Part shown: one piece after another, positions 11,460-27,198 of the stretch | Layout: each line of letters begins with the position of its first letter | Position numbering within the stretch: the stretch's first letter is position 1 | From: Flavobacterium xanthum | GTDB taxonomy: Bacteria; Bacteroidota; Bacteroidia; Flavobacteriales; Flavobacteriaceae | DNA: 64,000 nucleotides | Direction: 5' to 3' | Assembly: GCF_900142695.1 (NCBI RefSeq) | Contig: NZ_FRBU01000016.1 | Location: 1-64,000 of the forward strand | Notes under the pieces: generated by a model | Database searches by the model: none | Seen by the model: the letters and a program-made list of their open reading frames with translations, nothing else | Told to the model about the DNA's origin: nothing | Made by a program: the position numbers and the translations under genes

Positions 11460-11870
11460 ATGTATCCAGAAGAAATGGTAAAACCAATGCAAGCGGAACT
11501 AACGACTGCCGGTTTTCAAGATTTACATAGTGCTGAGGCAGTAGAAAATGCAATGAAATTAGAAGGAACAACCCTTGTGGTAGTGAATTCGGTTTGTGGT
11601 TGTGCTGCAAGAAATGCACGTCCAGGAGCAAAAATGAGTTTAGAAGGTGGTAAAAAACCAGATCATTTAATCACGGTTTTTGCAGGAGTTGACAAAGATG
11701 CTGTTGATGCAGCCAGACAACACATGTTCCCTTTTCCTCCATCATCGCCCGCTATGGCTTTGTTCAAAAACGGAGAATTAGTCCACATGCTAGAGCGTCA
11801 CCACATTGAAGGTCGCCCAGCAGAACTAATTGCTGAAAACTTAAAAGATGCTTTCAACGAGTACTGCTAA
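11460..11870 (+). CDS. BrxA/BrxB-family bacilliredoxin
   Basis: 136 aa, the usual length for the YphP/YqiW (BrxA/BrxB) family. The thioredoxin-like fold carries the CGC redox centre in [15 protein letters not shown] (residues about 45-49), and the C-terminus has [14 protein letters not shown]. The family removes bacillithiol or similar low-molecular-weight thiols from oxidised proteins. The thiol used by this organism cannot be read from the window. Monocistronic, with its own -7 box and terminator. Confidence 0.87.
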
Positions 11871-11889: not shown

Positions 11890-11917
11890 AAAACCACGTT
11901 CATTCGTGGTTTTTTTA
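11890..11917 (+). terminator. Rho-independent terminator of the bacilliredoxin gene
   Basis: AAAACCACG (11890-11898) pairs with CGTGGTTTT (11905-11913), loop TTCATT, followed by a T-run. Confidence 0.85.
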
Positions 11918-11920
11918 TTT

Positions 11921-12004
11921 GGAGCTGTTTCCTGCTTTCCGTTGCAATCTTTTTTCCCGCTAAAGAAGCGGATAAAAAAGGATTTTCACTACAATCAGGG
12001 CTAG
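11921..12004 (+). repeat. Structured interspersed repeat, copy 1
   Basis: Starts GGAGCTGTTTCC and ends CAATCAGGGCTAG, with a central hairpin (CTTTTTTCCCGCT against AGCGGATAAAAAAG). Related copies in the opposite orientation lie at 16269-16348 and 27134-27198. The ends are conserved, whereas the stem sequence differs but still pairs, as expected for a structured RNA or a mobile palindrome. It directly follows the bacilliredoxin terminator. Confidence 0.6.
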
Positions 12005-12161
12005 AAATGGTCTGGATTTAAATTACAATCCTTAATAATTCCTGCAATCCCTTGCTATAACTCCGTTTTACTAATCAACTTACCAAATAACAATTAGTGT
12101 CAAAAAGAAGTCTCTATTTGGTGGTATCTATACTTTATGCGCCACTTCGAACCGTATAATT

Positions 12162-12284
12162 ATGAAAATTCTTTTTGTTATTACCCTATTTTTCCTTGGA
12201 ATTGATGTAATAAACGACCAAAAGTCTATTTCACTTGAAACAAACGGAAACTGAGTAGCTCCTAAACCTGATACAGTTTGTATG
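12162..12284 (+). pseudogene. Possible decayed short secreted-peptide gene
   Basis: ATG 12162 opens MKILFVITLFFLGIDVINDQ, which looks like a signal peptide, but the frame hits TGA after 30 codons. Reading through gives VAPKPDTVCM and then a second TGA. A single TGG to TGA change would explain the first stop. No homologue is recognised and it may be chance. Confidence 0.2.
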
Positions 12285-12400
12285 TGATTTTTTGAGAAAA
12301 GGTTAAGGTTCTCCCGCAAGACTTAGCCACAAAAAAACAAATAATTTTAAAAAGCACACTTCCATATCTAGATACTAAATAAAACACTGTTCAATCTTTA

Positions 12401-12468
12401 CGGGCGTCAATTAAAAATCCGCGTTATCTTTGCGGTAAGCAACTGGATAAAATATATCCAGCCCGCGG
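12401..12468 (+). repeat. 68-bp segment repeated at 13838-13905 (copy 1)
   Basis: Begins CGGGCG and contains ATTAAAAATCC; by eye about 46 of 68 positions match the second copy. It includes TATCTTTG (12425-12432), a good -7 box for psd, and a CTGGATA/TATCCAG hairpin (12443-12461). A further hairpin, TGGCAG/CTGCCA (12488-12510), follows in the roughly 100-nt psd leader. The rest of 12005-12400 holds nothing I recognise apart from the decayed ORF. Confidence 0.4.
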
Positions 12469-12540
12469 AAGAAAGAAAGCGAAACGATGGCAGAAAAGTT
12501 TTGACTGCCAAACGACCAGAAATAAAAAAGAAAGTCAAGC

Positions 12541-13521
12541 ATGAAAATTACAAAAACTAAAAAAAGCTGGGGTATCATTCTGTTATTATTGGTAATCATT
12601 GCATTATTTGCTATTTATCCAGTGCCGCCACAAGCTCCCATCCAGTATTATGATAGGGAAACTGGGGTATTAAATACAGAAAAAGTGGCTGCCGAAAAAT
12701 GGCTGGTTTGGTTGTATAATAATCCGGTTGGCGAAGCAACATTGTGGGCATTGGTGAAAAGAAAGTTGGTTTCTTCTCTTTACGGTACTATGATGGATCG
12801 TCCTTCATCGACTAAAAAAATACAACCCTTTATTGCCGAATTTGATATTGACAGGAGGTCCTTCCAGAAACAAGAGTTCCACTCTTTCAACGATTTCTTT
12901 ACCCGGAAACTAAAAAATAATGCCAGACCAGTAGATAGTACGGCAACTAGTACAGTCTCACCGGCTGATGGAAAAATATTGGTCTATACCGATATCAGCA
13001 ATAGTGATTTTATCATCAAAGGGTACCGCTTCGACATTTTATCGTTTTTAAATAATGCTAAACTTGCTAAAAAATACATTGATGGTGCCTTGGTGATTAT
13101 CCGGCTCGCCCCTGCTGATTACCATCGTTTTCATTTTCCCATTAGCGGAAACGTATCATCAAACACTCGGATTGAGGGTGAATATTATTCAGTTAACCCA
13201 CTTGCTTTGCGCAAAATGACTGAAATATTCTGTTTAAACAAAAGGGAATATACAATCGTTACCAACCCTTTGTTTGGAGATGTTGTCATAGCCGAAGTAG
13301 GCGCGACCATGGTAGGAAGCATAGTCCAGACTCATAAAGGAGATTTTGTAAATAAAGGGGACGAGAAAGGATATTTCAAATTCGGGGGATCCACGGTAGT
13401 GCTGCTGTTTGAAAAAAATAAAATTAATATCGATGCCGATCTATTGCTTAATACTTTAAAAGGACATGAAACTTCCGTCAAAGTAGGAGAAAAAATTGGT
13501 GTTTCGATGATTAGACACTAA
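12541..13521 (+). CDS. Phosphatidylserine decarboxylase family protein
   Basis: 326 aa. An N-terminal membrane helix (about residues 10-26, WGIILLLLVIIALFAIYPV) precedes a full decarboxylase domain. Catalytic features are present: SPADGKI (Asp), DYHRFHFPISG (His), and the C-terminal processing site YFKFGGSTVVLLF, where self-cleavage before the serine of GST creates the pyruvoyl group. The product would be phosphatidylethanolamine at the inner membrane. The domain is of the longer PSD type with HSFNDFFTRKLK, and the organism may have a second, shorter Psd elsewhere. A long leader with hairpins precedes it. Confidence 0.85.
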   Translation: MKITKTKKSWGIILLLLVIIALFAIYPVPPQAPIQYYDRETGVLNTEKVAAEKWLVWLYNNPVGEATLWALVKRKLVSSLYGTMMDRPSSTKKIQPFIAEFDIDRRSFQKQEFHSFNDFFTRKLKNNARPVDSTATSTVSPADGKILVYTDISNSDFIIKGYRFDILSFLNNAKLAKKYIDGALVIIRLAPADYHRFHFPISGNVSSNTRIEGEYYSVNPLALRKMTEIFCLNKREYTIVTNPLFGDVVIAEVGATMVGSIVQTHKGDFVNKGDEKGYFKFGGSTVVLLFEKNKINIDADLLLNTLKGHETSVKVGEKIGVSMIRH

Positions 13522-14028
13522 TTTCCAGATTTGGGTTGTAATGGGCACCCACTGCGCGAATAGTGGCAAAACGGTAGCGAATAAATTTTTTCGTTGCTTT
13601 CACTAGTTCTCCACAAAAAAAGGTTTTAAAAAGTATTATTTTATATTTTAGAACTGCCCGCTTTGAGGACTAACTTTCTTTTTTTGCCACAGAATTAAGA
13701 GATTTTCACGAATTTATCCAGTAATTCTAATTCCCCTTTTCTTTAATCTATGCAATCTCTGGCAAAAAATAGTATTGGACCTACTTACGGATAGTCATAT
13801 TATAGTCAGACATCACTTAAATAATTAGCAGTCGCTCCGGGCGCTGATTAAAAATCCATACTCTCTTTGGAGTGAGCAATTAGAACGAAAAAATCCAAGC
13901 CGTCGTGTATTAAAATCGGTATCTTTACTTTTGTATGAAGTAACCAAAGATAGCAACTTCCTTTTATCGCGACGATTCTAAAAACGACTAGGAGTGACAA
14001 ACCGCTTTTGAAAATTAAAAAAACTAGC
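13522..14028. other. Intergenic region between psd and an unknown gene
   Basis: About 507 bp. It contains fragments of the flavobacterial GCCACAGAATTAAGAGATTT-like and CACGAATTT repeats near 13685-13760, the second copy of the 68-bp segment (13838-13905), and a TACTTTTG -7 box (13926-13933) within a GGTATCTTT...AAAGATAGC hairpin (13919-13952). No coding sequence is supported. Confidence 0.5.
13838..13905 (+). repeat. 68-bp segment repeated at 12401-12468 (copy 2)
   Basis: Shares CGGGCG, ATTAAAAATCC, TCTTTG, GAGCAA and AATCCA-like blocks in the same order with the segment before psd. Both copies precede genes on the plus strand at 120-190 nt. A regulatory role is unproven. Confidence 0.4.
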
Positions 14029-14541
14029 ATGGACAAATACTTACGGCAATTAATTACAATAGAGTTTGACGACAAAAAAGAAATTTTTAGTGGCTTTCTA
14101 ATTGATTGGACTGAAGATTGGATCTTACTTAAAAATAACCCTGTCGATTTTATAATTGATGGTTATACCATATTGAAAAACAAAAATGTAAAGGCTATTA
14201 TCCAAGATAAGGATCACGAATTTACCGAACGAGTAATTAAACTAAAAGGTTTAAAAACAAGCGCTTCCGAAATAATTCCGCTTAAAGACGTATTTTCCAT
14301 TCTCTATTTTGTAGCAAGCAAATATGAGATTTTTCAAATTGCAACGAAGTCTGAAAAAGCACTATATCTTGGTAAACTCATAGAAATGAATGAGGAAGAG
14401 GTCGTAATAGACTTTTTAGGAACCGAAGGAAAATTTGAAGGCGAAATGAGTTTTAAGCCCAGCAAAATAAGAGTCATAGAATTTGATACCGATTATATCA
14501 ATTCTTTGAAACTAATTGTTGAAGAAGAAAAGAAAAAGTAA
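14029..14541 (+). CDS. Conserved-looking protein of unknown function
   Basis: 170 aa from ATG 14029; a TTG 21 nt upstream is possible but weaker. There is no signal peptide or membrane segment, so it is cytoplasmic. The first 60 residues (LITIEFDDKKEIFSGFLIDW, then EDWILLKNNPVDFIIDGYTI) alternate like a small Sm/SH3-type beta-barrel, and a similar pattern recurs near 115-160 (KALYLGKLIEMNEEEVVIDF). This suggests two related barrels. That reading is structural guesswork; I do not recognise the family. Confidence 0.65.
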   Translation: MDKYLRQLITIEFDDKKEIFSGFLIDWTEDWILLKNNPVDFIIDGYTILKNKNVKAIIQDKDHEFTERVIKLKGLKTSASEIIPLKDVFSILYFVASKYEIFQIATKSEKALYLGKLIEMNEEEVVIDFLGTEGKFEGEMSFKPSKIRVIEFDTDYINSLKLIVEEEKKK

Positions 14542-14720
14542 AGACCAAATCTCCTCGCTAAACAGACAGTCCCAAGAATCAGAATACGTAACTGCAACCA
14601 GCGAAAAATTCATTTCTAAGTCATTTTATTAAGATCAGAAAAGAATAATGGTTAAGTTAAAATTTTTATAAAAAGAGCACTTGTTTCAACGTTCGTTACT
14701 AAATATGATACTTTTAAAAA

Positions 14721-15512
14721 ATGAAAAAAAATCTAATATTGCTTTGCGTTTTGGCGACACTTTTATTCTCCTGTAACAAGAAAAAGGAAAGTAATGGAGC
14801 AACCGTCAACAACGACACCCTTGCAACCGAAAAAAAATTCTCAAAAGCAGATTCTATAATTAATAAAGCCATTGAAGCACACGGCGGAAAATTATATACT
14901 ACTGCCAACTACTCCTTTATTTTTAGAGGTAAAGAGTACCGTTTTAAGAATAATGGAGCTTCCTATATATATTCTTCTGAAATTCAAAAGGGAGATTCTC
15001 TTATCAAAGACCTACTGACTCCAGAAAAGTTTGAACGTTCTATAAATAGCAAGTTACAATCTTTATCCAAAGAAGATTCTGCGAAGTATTCAGAGGCAAT
15101 AAATTCGGTTATTTATTTTGCCACACTTCCCTACAAACTTCAAGATGCTTCCGTAAATAAAAAATTCATTGAAGAAATCACAATCAAAGGACAGCAATAC
15201 GATGCAATAGGTGTAACTTTTGGTCAAGACGGTGGCGGCAAAGATTTTGATGATGAGTATCACTACTGGATCAATACAACCACGCATAAAATGGATTACT
15301 TGGCCTATAATTACCGCGTGAATGATGGTGGTGTGCGCTTTAGAGTGGCCTTTAACACCCGCGTAATTGACGGTATAACTTTTCAGGATTACATTAATTA
15401 TGAAGCCCCTTTGAAAACTCCTTTGAAAGACTTACCAAAATTATACGAACAAGGAAAACTAAAAGAAGTATCTCAAATACTGACGGAGAATGTGGTCAAT
15501 AATCACAAGTAA
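14721..15512 (+). CDS. Lipoprotein, DUF6503-like
   Basis: 263 aa with a lipobox (LATLLFSC, Cys18) and a lysine-rich start to the mature part. The body resembles the flavobacterial DUF6503 family, with DSIINKAIEAHGGKLYTTAN, then FIFRGKEYRFKNNGASY and DDEYHYWINTTTHKMDYLAY. The fold is LolA-like beta-sheet in general terms. Relatives are sometimes mislabelled deoxyribose-phosphate aldolase. No enzymatic motif is seen. It is probably anchored in the outer or inner membrane facing the periplasm. Confidence 0.7.
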   Translation: MKKNLILLCVLATLLFSCNKKKESNGATVNNDTLATEKKFSKADSIINKAIEAHGGKLYTTANYSFIFRGKEYRFKNNGASYIYSSEIQKGDSLIKDLLTPEKFERSINSKLQSLSKEDSAKYSEAINSVIYFATLPYKLQDASVNKKFIEEITIKGQQYDAIGVTFGQDGGGKDFDDEYHYWINTTTHKMDYLAYNYRVNDGGVRFRVAFNTRVIDGITFQDYINYEAPLKTPLKDLPKLYEQGKLKEVSQILTENVVNNHK

Positions 15513-15684
15513 GCAACTGGATTGCAAAATCTACGACCTTTAAAAATTTAAACCATAAGCGGGCGAATCTCTGTAAGATTCCTAACTCTTTTGCATCGCA
15601 TTAGCATGAGTATTCTGCTTGTGAACACTTACTATTGCATCAATTTTTTTACCCCAATCTATCATTCAGAAAAAGGAAGGGTCT

Positions 15685-16242
15685 CCACATCTGCTCCGCA
15701 AAGTTTCCAACTTTGAGGTGGCGTCAAAAGGTCTCCTGACCTTTCTGAAAACTCTCATGCCAGCTGATGTTACTCACCATACAGAGATTCTTCGTTCCTC
15801 AGAATCACAAAATAAACACAGACCACCACATCTGCTCCGTAAAGTTTCCAACTTTGAGGTGGCGTTAAAAGGTCTCCTGACCTTTCTGAAAACTCTCATG
15901 CCAGCTGATGCTACTCACCATACAGAGATTCTTTTTTCCTCAGAATGACAAAATAAACACAGACCACCACATCTGCTCCGCAAAGTTTCCAACTTTGAGG
16001 TGGCGTTAAAAGGTCTCCTGACCTTTCTGAAAACTCTCATGCCAGCAGATGTTGCTCACCATATAGAGATTCTTCGTTCCTCAGAATGACAAAATAAACA
16101 CAGACCACCACATCTGCTCCGCAAAGTTTCCAACTTTGAGGTGGCGCTAAAAGGTCTCCTGACCTTTCTGAAAACTCTCATGCCAGCAGATGTTGCTCAC
16201 CATATAGCGATTCTTCGTTCCTCAGAATGACAAAATAACCAC
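15685..16242. repeat. Four tandem copies of a 141-bp unit
   Basis: Copies begin at 15685, 15826, 15967 and 16108, and are nearly identical. Each holds two hairpins, CAAAGT-ttcca-ACTTTG and AAAGGTC-tcct-GACCTTT, and ends in TTCCTCAGAATGACAAAAT. The complement of that end is the GTCATTCTGAGGAA-type repeat common in Bacteroidota. Since 141 is a multiple of three, one frame stays open through two units, but this is not a credible protein. The flanks 15513-15684 and 16349-16492 contain only the trhO promoter. Confidence 0.9.
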
Positions 16243-16268
16243 AAAATATTCCTTTAATACCAACTCCC

Positions 16269-16348
16269 CTAGCCCAGATTGAAGCGGCATACTCTTGTTG
16301 AAGCGCTAGCGAAAACAAGAGATAAAGCGAAAAGCTGGAAGTAGCTCC
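16269..16348 (-). repeat. Structured interspersed repeat, copy 2
   Basis: Read on the minus strand it starts GGAGCTACTTCCAGC and ends CAATCTGGGCTAG, like the copy at 11921. Its stem is different (CTCTTGTT with AACAAGAG), yet paired at the equivalent place. Confidence 0.6.
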
Positions 16349-16492: not shown

Positions 16493-17860
16493 ATGCAACT
16501 GTACAACACCTTAAGCGCAGAAGAAAGAGCCATCATGATTGATGATGCCGGAAAACAACGTCTTACGTTGTCTTTCTATGCTTATGCGCAAATTTCAAAT
16601 CCAACACAATTTCGTAACGAATTATTCCTAGCGTGGAACTCTCTTGAAGTTCTAGGGCGAATTTATGTAGCCCCTGAGGGAATTAACGCCCAACTATCGC
16701 TTCCTGCAGATAATTTCTACGCGTTTAAAGACACTATCGAAGTGTATGATTTCATGAAAGGAATCCGTTTGAATATTGCCGTAGAACAAGACGACCACTC
16801 TTTTTTGAAACTGACGGTAAAAGTGCGAGACAAAATTGTTGCTGATGGTTTGGTTGATGAAACTTTTGATGTGACGAATATTGGAATTCACCTTAAAGCA
16901 AAAGAATTCAACGACTTGCTAGAAGATCCCAATACCATTGTGGTGGATATGCGCAATCATTATGAAAGTGAAATTGGACATTTTACCAAAGCTATAAAAC
17001 CAGATGTGGATACTTTTCGTGAAAGTTTACCCATCATCGAAGAACAACTTTCTGAACACAAGCAAGATAAAAAACTATTGATGTATTGCACCGGAGGAAT
17101 CCGTTGTGAAAAAGCTAGTGCTTATTTCAAGCACAAAGGTTTTGAAAACGTGTACCAACTGGAAGGCGGGATTATAGAATACACACGCCAAGTAAAAGCC
17201 GAAGGTTTAGAAAGCAAATTCATTGGTAAAAACTTTGTTTTTGATCACCGCTTAGGCGAAAGAATTACAAATGATATTGTTTCGCAATGCCATCAATGTG
17301 GCGAAGCTTGTGATGTGCATACGAATTGCGTGAACGAAGGCTGCCATTTGCTTTTCATTCAATGCGATTCCTGTAAAGAGAAAATGGAAGGCTGCTGTTC
17401 TGCAGAATGTGTGCGTGTCATTCACTTGCCGGAAGAGGAACAAAAAGCCATCAGACGTGGTATTAAAAACGGGAATAAGATTTTCAAAAAAGGAAAATCA
17501 GACGTTTTGACTTTTAAAAACAACGAAGAAACGCATGGTATTTTTGTGGCTGAAAAACCATCCCGAAGCGTTGGGACTACCATTAAAAAAGAAGTAAAAG
17601 TTAAAAAACAATATATTGGAAAAGGGACGCATTTTTTTCCAAAACCAAGTATTGGTCAATTTCTAATTGAAGAAAACGAAATCAAAATTGGCGACACCAT
17701 TTTGATAAAAGGAACTACAACCGGCGAACAAAAACTAGTAATTAGCGAAATGCTAGTAAATGATTTAGCGCAAGAAAATGCAATTGCTGGAGATACATGT
17801 ACGTTTAAATTACCATTTAGAATTCGATTATCTGATAAATTATATAAGATTTTAGACTAA
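16493..17860 (+). CDS. trhO: tRNA uridine(34) hydroxylase with an extra C-terminal barrel
   Basis: 455 aa. The N-terminal ferredoxin-like domain has the family signature ([19 protein letters not shown]). The rhodanese domain carries [11 protein letters not shown] with active cysteine 199. A Cys-rich linker (about 264-309, CHQCGEAC ... CSAEC) may bind zinc. Known TrhO (YceA) uses oxygen to make 5-hydroxyuridine at the tRNA wobble position. Residues about 376-455 ([20 protein letters not shown] ... [16 protein letters not shown]) look like the beta-barrel that ends U32-peptidase-type TrhP proteins, and extend beyond the 350-aa E. coli type. Confidence 0.85.
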
Positions 17861-22915: not shown

Positions 22916-23263
22916 ATGGATAAAGAGAATGTTGTTGTTTCTAAATCCATTGATTTTGCATTAGGTATTATAGCTTTTTGTGAAATATTAGAAAGTAAAC
23001 GCAAATTTATTATTGCCAATCAACTATTAAAATCAGGAACAAGTATAGGCGCTAATATTCATGAAGCACAAAATGCCGAAAGCAGAGCAGATTTTATCCA
23101 TAAAATTAAAATTGCAGCCAAGGAACTAGAGGAAACAAAATACTGGCTTTTGCTTTGTGAAAAAGCATCCTCATACCCTTTTGATGAAAGCCTGAAAATT
23201 CAAATTAATGAATTAGGATTAATAGTTTACAAAATCCTAAGCACTAGTAAAAATAATAAGTAA
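22916..23263 (+). CDS. Four-helix-bundle protein (S23 / rRNA intervening-sequence type)
   Basis: 115 aa, entirely helical, matching the family first found in 23S rRNA intervening sequences: RKFIIANQLLKSGTSIGANI, HEAQNAESRADFIHKIKIAA, KELEETKYWLLLC. Family members form pentamers of unknown function and occur at scattered genomic sites as isolated genes. Here one sits between scoA and scoB in the same orientation, with 38 and 51 nt AT-rich gaps. This looks like an insertion into a pre-existing operon. It should be co-transcribed. Confidence 0.85.
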   Translation: MDKENVVVSKSIDFALGIIAFCEILESKRKFIIANQLLKSGTSIGANIHEAQNAESRADFIHKIKIAAKELEETKYWLLLCEKASSYPFDESLKIQINELGLIVYKILSTSKNNK

Positions 23264-27133: not shown

Positions 27134-27198
27134 TAGCCCCGATAAAGGCATGATTCTTTTGTGTCATTCCCTAAATTTTGGGAATGGGAAATAGCTCC
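27134..27198 (-). repeat. Structured interspersed repeat, copy 3 (degenerate)
   Basis: On the minus strand it reads GGAGCTATTTCCCATTCCC, then a CATTCCC/GGGAATG hairpin, and ends ATCGGGGCTAAAT. It has the same end motifs as the copies at 11921 and 16269 but a third, unrelated stem sequence. Confidence 0.5.

Follow-up and report, generated by a model that had tools for sequence, protein, structure and literature searches.

The closest described relative of the elements analysed here is the Flavo-1 motif (RF01705), which was tabulated in 2010 in Genome Biol. as probably RNA and not cis-regulatory, and which has since been kept on file as a probable RNA to which no function is assigned (PMC2864571). 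In the section that treats it, a further account ranks Flavo-1 with the most abundant sRNA families (PMC9029176). A sequence-only reading of the window (the whole stretch of 64,000 nucleotides that was analysed) had raised the possibility that three of its stretches belong to this family, and comparison with Rfam bears this out for two of them, copies 1 and 2, which lie over the gathering score and share the core and the strand of RF01705. The elements are longer than the 76-position model: type A copies have an outer AGC/GCT, and type B copies a second hairpin in addition to an outer helix. They also differ from RF01705 in their several end types, in the presence of copies on phage contigs and in an orientation-fixed, DNA-like behaviour.

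Two other systems invite comparison. A GGAG-type tag at the hairpin foot is the rule for REP elements, and a GGAG tag stands at the foot of the Flavo-1 hairpin on the antisense strand; the numerous short intergenic palindromic copies and their vertical persistence are also shared with REP elements and REPINs. These are described, in the part of the source that defines them, as short palindromes of 20-40 bp (PMC3733652), whereas type A and type B copies of Flavo-1 are ~70-145 nt long and have purine internal loops and, in type B, a three-way junction. Unlike REPs, Flavo-1 is without RAYT linkage, and the RAYT-like genes of the same genome have other flanking repeats (by eye). The packaging RNA of phage phi29 has a three-way junction and is linked to the packaging ATPase gene. 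The likeness would lie in the three-way junction of type B and in its presence in phages near a packaging ATPase gene; in contrast, Flavo-1 is antisense at the terminase stop, is mainly a host repeat, and is without a match at 75 of 80 terminase relatives. In the published passages on Flavo-1/RF01705 covered here we found no position conservation, phage copies or three-way junction. What is known is thus the family; what would be new, and we give this an even chance, is evidence for a strand-specific DNA hairpin that is conserved in position and orientation and has a three-way-junction subclass shared with phages.

Results

Three copies in the window

Copy 1 is of type A and occupies positions 11921..12003 on the minus strand (RF01705, 78.1 bits), where it reads TAGCCC..core..GGAAACAGCTCC. 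Copy 2, also of type A and with a GCGGCAT core variant, occupies 16270..16348 on the plus strand (RF01705, 52.0 bits), and copy 3, a decayed remnant on the plus strand (27134..27198), gave no match with the Rfam model. With our own type A model, R1, trained on 47 of this genome's type A copies, the scores of copies 1, 2 and 3 were 83.1, 69.3 and 22.5 bits (rough E values of 1.1e-21, 1.2e-17 and 5.1e-4), copies 1 and 2 being among the training rows and copy 3 outside them. The three stretches, with the ends that had been given for them, are present where the sequence-only reading placed them; its strand signs are opposite to those of Rfam.

Copy 3 has both ends, and its inner right arm is gone. 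Because this arm is lost, its CATTCCC/GGGAATG hairpin is not homologous to the stem of the other copies and is no compensatory change, so that the changed but still paired stems described earlier hold for copies 1 and 2 and not for copy 3. At the same place in one relative (L434, genome G004) a copy of 49.4 bits lies between both neighbouring genes, and in another (L422, G003) a copy of 85.7 bits adjoins the MGMT-like gene, the second neighbouring gene not being found in that locus. Four further loci (L424, L426, L429 and L438) have both neighbouring genes with gaps of 97-198 bp and no Flavo-1 match there. Since the right inner arm is missing and relatives have copies at the same place, copy 3 is a decayed copy and does not add a third variant of the structure.

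Copies 1 and 2 are inverted with respect to each other, and the gene content of the stretch between them (12004..16269) varies by species. The left border of the copy 1 site is an ORF at 11460..11870 (+), which is presumably BrxA/BrxB-like, and for which 80 related loci were retrieved; the right border of the copy 2 site is an ORF at 16493..17860 (+), presumably TrhO/rhodanese-like. Copy 1 lies directly behind a terminator-like hairpin with a T run (11893..11917, +; by eye), which is itself 3′ of the BrxB-like ORF, and this order of hairpin and then copy recurs at the BrxB-like gene in several relatives. At the BrxB-TrhO site, relatives have zero, one, or two inverted elements around differing genes. 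Flavobacterium species hold here from no gene, with BrxB adjoining TrhO, to ~4 kb, and in one species the variable slot is a three-gene block (L185, 8654-11561), whose largest protein presumably resembles the SMC-like/DUF2326 protein of defence islands. An integron attC-like exact exchange of cassettes at this site was rejected, as species have part of the DNA past the element in common before it diverges (by eye).

Beside copy 2, at 16000-16240 of the window, there are repeats of the CTCCGCAAAGT..ACTTTGAGG kind, which are also found around a RAYT-like Y1 gene elsewhere in this genome (L033, contig C57); they are a REP-RAYT-like system separate from Flavo-1. A 115-aa ORF at 22916-23263, located between two CoA-transferase-like subunit genes, is by our assumption similar to the four-helix-bundle (23S intervening-sequence) protein.

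Family size and distribution

The whole genome that carries the window (3.76 Mb, 101 contigs), which its closest named relatives place in Flavobacterium, gave 96 Flavo-1 matches at E<=1e-3, 90 of them over the gathering cut-off of RF01705 (42 bits), and 14 control genomes gave none, so that chance is excluded for the Flavo-1 family. Matches were present in 186 of 199 Flavobacterium genomes, this one included, and seven relatives searched genome by genome had 15 to 128 each; outside the genus, within the same order, Flavo-1 was found in 5 of 23 genomes. As to a confinement of Flavo-1 to Bacteroidetes, the genome searches covered the genus, its order and the 14 controls; one named locus, L254, which is labelled as a Rhizobium MAG, has a match and is probably a mislabelled record. 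The 13 Flavobacterium genomes with no match would be a natural set for tracing a partner protein. In the genus search these were G018, G020, G033, G081, G099, G107, G108, G110, G146, G153, G181, G193 and G216; G033 gave one weak match in another search.

All 90 copies over the cut-off were read together with their flanks. A script called 52 of them type A, 20 type B and 18 other, and inspection put the A-like copies at 54, type B at 23 and type C at 13. Type A follows the pattern TAGCCC-core-GGAAATAGCTCC, and type C has an insert of 28-32 nt ahead of GCTCC. A three-way junction in type C was considered and dropped, the insert hairpin reaching p<0.05 in just 1 of 13 copies. Five pairs of matches less than 3 kb apart, picked in this genome, were all inverted (C59:2428/3371, C28:36474/38134, C28:48895/51635, C47:72628/74837 and C90:130831/132524), and in four of these five one core-type gene lies between the two matches (by look, truA, ahcY, nrdA and rpsA).

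Fold and covariation

The Rfam-sense strand can form a long hairpin with covarying pairs, among which stand purine mismatches (A.G, G.A, A.G and G.A) that vary hardly or not at all. Among the 52 type A copies, position 7 is T-A in 25, C-G in 13, A-T in 10, G-C in 3 and unpaired in 1, and position 11 is A-T in 28, T-A in 12, G-C in 8, C-G in 1 and unpaired in 3. The A.G mismatch at position 9 is constant in 52/52, and those at positions 12 (G.A), 14 (A.G) and 17 (G.A) are found in 47, 49 and 49 of the 52 copies. The ends of the element are unpaired in the Rfam structure line. In six loci (L029, L035, L038, L047, L068 and L072) other palindromes were seen in the apical loop, the hairpin being longer yet unbroken (by eye).

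Type B copies have an extra outer helix, GCGTGA/TCACGC and compensated forms of it. An exact complement of at least 5 bp to its 5′ strand was present in the next 80 nt in 20 of 23 type B copies, and in 11.9% of 413 swapped combinations. The outer helix and the second hairpin together give a three-way junction, which is missing from the Rfam model.

Compensatory change, which had been claimed from the window's own copies, holds in larger alignments. In the type A alignment used for R1 (47 of the 52 script-called copies, i.e., those shorter than 100 nt), 95.1% of the cells in 24 pairs were paired, compared with 75.9% in shuffled alignments, and there were 220 double-change cells vs 62 in the shuffled ones. 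The orthologs of a single site, ddl/PASTA, taken alone (25 of 27 copies, own copy included, two with odd apical parts being left out), gave 97.1% of paired cells and 42 vs 9.5 double-change cells. For the type B three-way junction (19 of 23 copies, those with long or unclear ends being left out) the values were 92.2% and 66 vs 21.3. Further pair types stood above the shuffles in the 47-copy type A alignment (2/500), with no excess over shuffles at ddl/PASTA (369/500) or in type B (90/500).

Position and orientation in other species

The position and the orientation of Flavo-1 are often inherited. Of the 57 loci fetched for copies in relatives, five were too short and 52 were used. Eighteen of these 52 copies share both flanking genes with a copy of our genome, at 15 sites, and the orientation is kept in 18/18; six further copies have one flank in common, on the same side. 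By our own estimate, based on ~90 copies and some thousands of intergenic regions, chance alone would give ~1-2 shared sites. A recount with the nearest ORFs gave 16 copies at shared sites, none of them in the opposite orientation.

In the 18 pairs the mean identity was 0.83 for the core, 0.79 for the genes and 0.65 for the apical part, and 0.56 for the rest of the intergenic DNA (23 flanks), a value taken over the longer of the two lengths and lowered by unequal lengths. Orthologous cores were closer than other pairs (0.827 vs 0.781; 3 of 5000 permutations), a slight difference, and in the same comparison orthologous apical parts were no closer than other pairs. As the orthologous cores are just slightly closer, gene conversion may mimic site-wise selection.

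At the ddl/PASTA site the element was present in 27 of the best 30 loci (26/29 without our genome) and had the same orientation in 27/27, but 27/30 is not a frequency, because the loci, our genome among them, were chosen as best matching a query with Flavo-1 in it. In eight genomes the intergenic gap at this site is just 45-77 bp and the element is absent; L462 and L474 have longer gaps and still no match. Twelve more loci, hand-picked for small or odd gaps, comprised eight without the element (one of them, L482, from the same genome as L478), two with it, one with a degenerate copy (by eye) and one in which the second gene is missing.

At another site, followed in seven species, the inner hairpin has been swapped as a block and the ends and flanks have been retained. 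In one pair of loci (L189/L190) the identity is 0.93 in the flank and 0.63 in the inner part, and in another (L187/L192) it is 0.85 and 0.96, respectively. Such a replacement at a fixed site requires that copies exchange sequence with one another or are re-inserted, and this makes the inference that each site was selected separately a weaker one.

The strand and the molecule

According to simple ORF calls, the 90 copies of our genome fall into the gene contexts ++ (23), -- (28), divergent (20), convergent (10) and unresolved (9). At tandem sites 28 are antisense and 23 sense, i.e., there is no gene-direction bias. On the Rfam strand of 166 elements, wobble appears as 22 G.T vs 3 A.C in the core and as 39 vs 8 in the apical stem. 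When wobble was counted by context (135 of 142 sites were parsed and 7 left out), G.T:A.C was 7:0 for --, 10:6 for ++, 17:3 for divergent, 6:0 for convergent and 4:4 for unresolved sites, giving 44:13 in all contexts (p 4.7e-5), with the caveats that the counts are small, that the copies are related and that they were detected by sense-strand covariance models tolerating G-U. The predicted energies were better for the sense strand in 59/72 elements with DNA parameters and in 46/72 with RNA parameters. If a co-transcribed RNA were at work, the reverse of the 7:0 ratio would be expected in operon-antisense copies, and hence the strand matters independently of the operon transcript; the remaining options are single-stranded DNA or a transcript of its own.

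The second of these options corresponds to a small RNA or a cis RNA element, the sense strand of which would be transcribed, often from its own promoter. Sense-strand covariation with G-U tolerance agrees with it, as does the entry of the motif as probably RNA in the 2010 table (PMC2864571), and in the part of the F. psychrophilum transcriptome report that deals with the family several 5′ transcribed regions coincide with Flavo-1 matches (PMC9723704). The same part states that matches are sense or antisense indistinctly and that many are located outside transcribed regions (PMC9723704). No shared promoter-like motif was seen by eye in the 25-nt flanks of the copies, the orientation of Flavo-1 follows neither neighbouring gene, and the G.T excess on the Rfam strand extends to copies antisense to an operon. 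The last two results run against the RNA function that had been implied from the window, and we regard an RNA as unlikely.

The same place and direction across species, together with a hairpin on one strand whatever the gene direction, bring Flavo-1 closer to structured DNA sites than to an RNA gene. We therefore read the three stretches as Flavo-1 copies and the family as a REP-like, strand-specific hairpin repeat that would act at the DNA level, rather than as a small-RNA gene, and we see the chances for and against this as balanced. In such a DNA repeat, the Rfam strand would matter while it is single-stranded, in replication, repair or transfer, and a putative structure-specific protein would bind the single-stranded form. 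New copies would be rare, and old ones would be retained or refreshed by swapping the inner hairpin with other copies. If Flavo-1 is a DNA element, the sRNA counts in Bacteroidetes are inflated, and the genus as a whole has a hairpin system that is fixed in orientation and has its counterpart in phages.

A bias of the copies with respect to the replication strand was also considered. It was seen first in a hand count and then in 29/41 copies (>=71 bits) of two exploratory genomes, G010 and G036, and was dropped with 28/51 in G173, the one additional genome with a contig beginning at dnaA; all six genomes pooled gave 96/165 (p 0.043). G203, G074 and G191 were unusable for this count because there is no dnaA in the first 3 kb of their contigs.

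Transposase genes and mobility

If Flavo-1 were selfish or mobile, as a MITE or a REPIN is, its structure would be kept only through self-copying of the family, and the conserved sites would then be old insertions refreshed by gene conversion. The range of 0 to 128 matches per genome within the genus, the presence or absence of the element at orthologous sites, the inner hairpins exchanged at fixed sites and the slight excess in closeness of orthologous cores, absent from the apical parts, are all consistent with this. On the other hand, position and orientation are retained across species, no target duplication is visible by eye in the flanks (a closely related clean empty site was not found either), and no association with a transposase was found. 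We give this alternative a small chance.

The transposase comparison was made with Y1 genes, of which our genome has three. The fetched flanks of these three genes contained no Flavo-1 match, and a match was present at 1 of 29 Y1 loci of relatives (L129). Furthermore, three genomes (G004, G029 and G030) have at least 64 Flavo-1 matches each and no Y1 gene, and the presence of Y1 transposases does not track the Flavo-1 copy number. Mobilisation by a RAYT/Y1 transposase as a present partner was therefore rejected. By eye, two of the three Y1 genes of our genome are bordered by other repeats. Two Flavo-1 copies in L129 (~1233 and ~2576), one truncated and one full, enclose a Y1 transposase region and are alike in their left flanks.

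Neighbouring genes, which were unannotated and judged by eye, included no recurrent transposase-like gene, and the neighbours that recur outside the shared syntenic sites are merely distant members of common families (likewise unannotated). A blastn search of copy 1 against plasmid and phage records gave no match.

Copies on phage contigs

The type A pattern, in its AAATCC variant only, matched no IMG/VR contig. Type B core patterns matched 9 and 20 IMG/VR stretches, some of them plainly by chance, inside genes, and with model R2 there were 22 matches in 21/72 viral loci, several of which are near-identical contigs. The stop of a terminase-large-like gene of 530-580 aa is followed, 0-75 bp further on, by the element in ~11 contig groups, always in antisense; in L336 the gene was assigned from its size and place alone, and in L331 and L334 the distance was estimated by eye. 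PHROG identified a terminase in 3 of 8 scanned genes and Pfam in none, the rest being linked by alignment. One element is on a 5.7 kb contig that encodes a replication-initiation protein and is microvirus-like in size and gene. When the terminase family was taken as the starting point, 5 of 80 loci had the element, four of which were already known from the element search, and a partnership with terminase as a general rule was rejected on this count.

That type B came from phages or is shared with them, serving at the terminase gene end in roles for which packaging, transcription end or replication were proposed, while the hosts carry domesticated copies, agrees with the viral matches of the type B patterns and of R2, with the antisense placement at the terminase-like stop and with the element on the replication-initiation contig, but given the 5/80 terminase relatives we hold both the origin and the proposed roles to be very improbable.

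Returning to Flavo-1 as a strand-specific DNA hairpin, it may tentatively be extended to a single-stranded-DNA signal common to Flavobacterium chromosomes and phages, which a putative conserved protein would read in replication, repair or packaging; we think this rather doubtful. A signal of this kind would, with the same low probability, cover both the hairpin or three-way-junction fold, whose sites and orientations close to core genes are inherited, and the phage placement at the terminase gene end. In three of the phage loci (L331, ~2395-2620; L334, ~2138-2350; and L328, 3539-3845) the type B element has an apical domain of ~150-260 nt.
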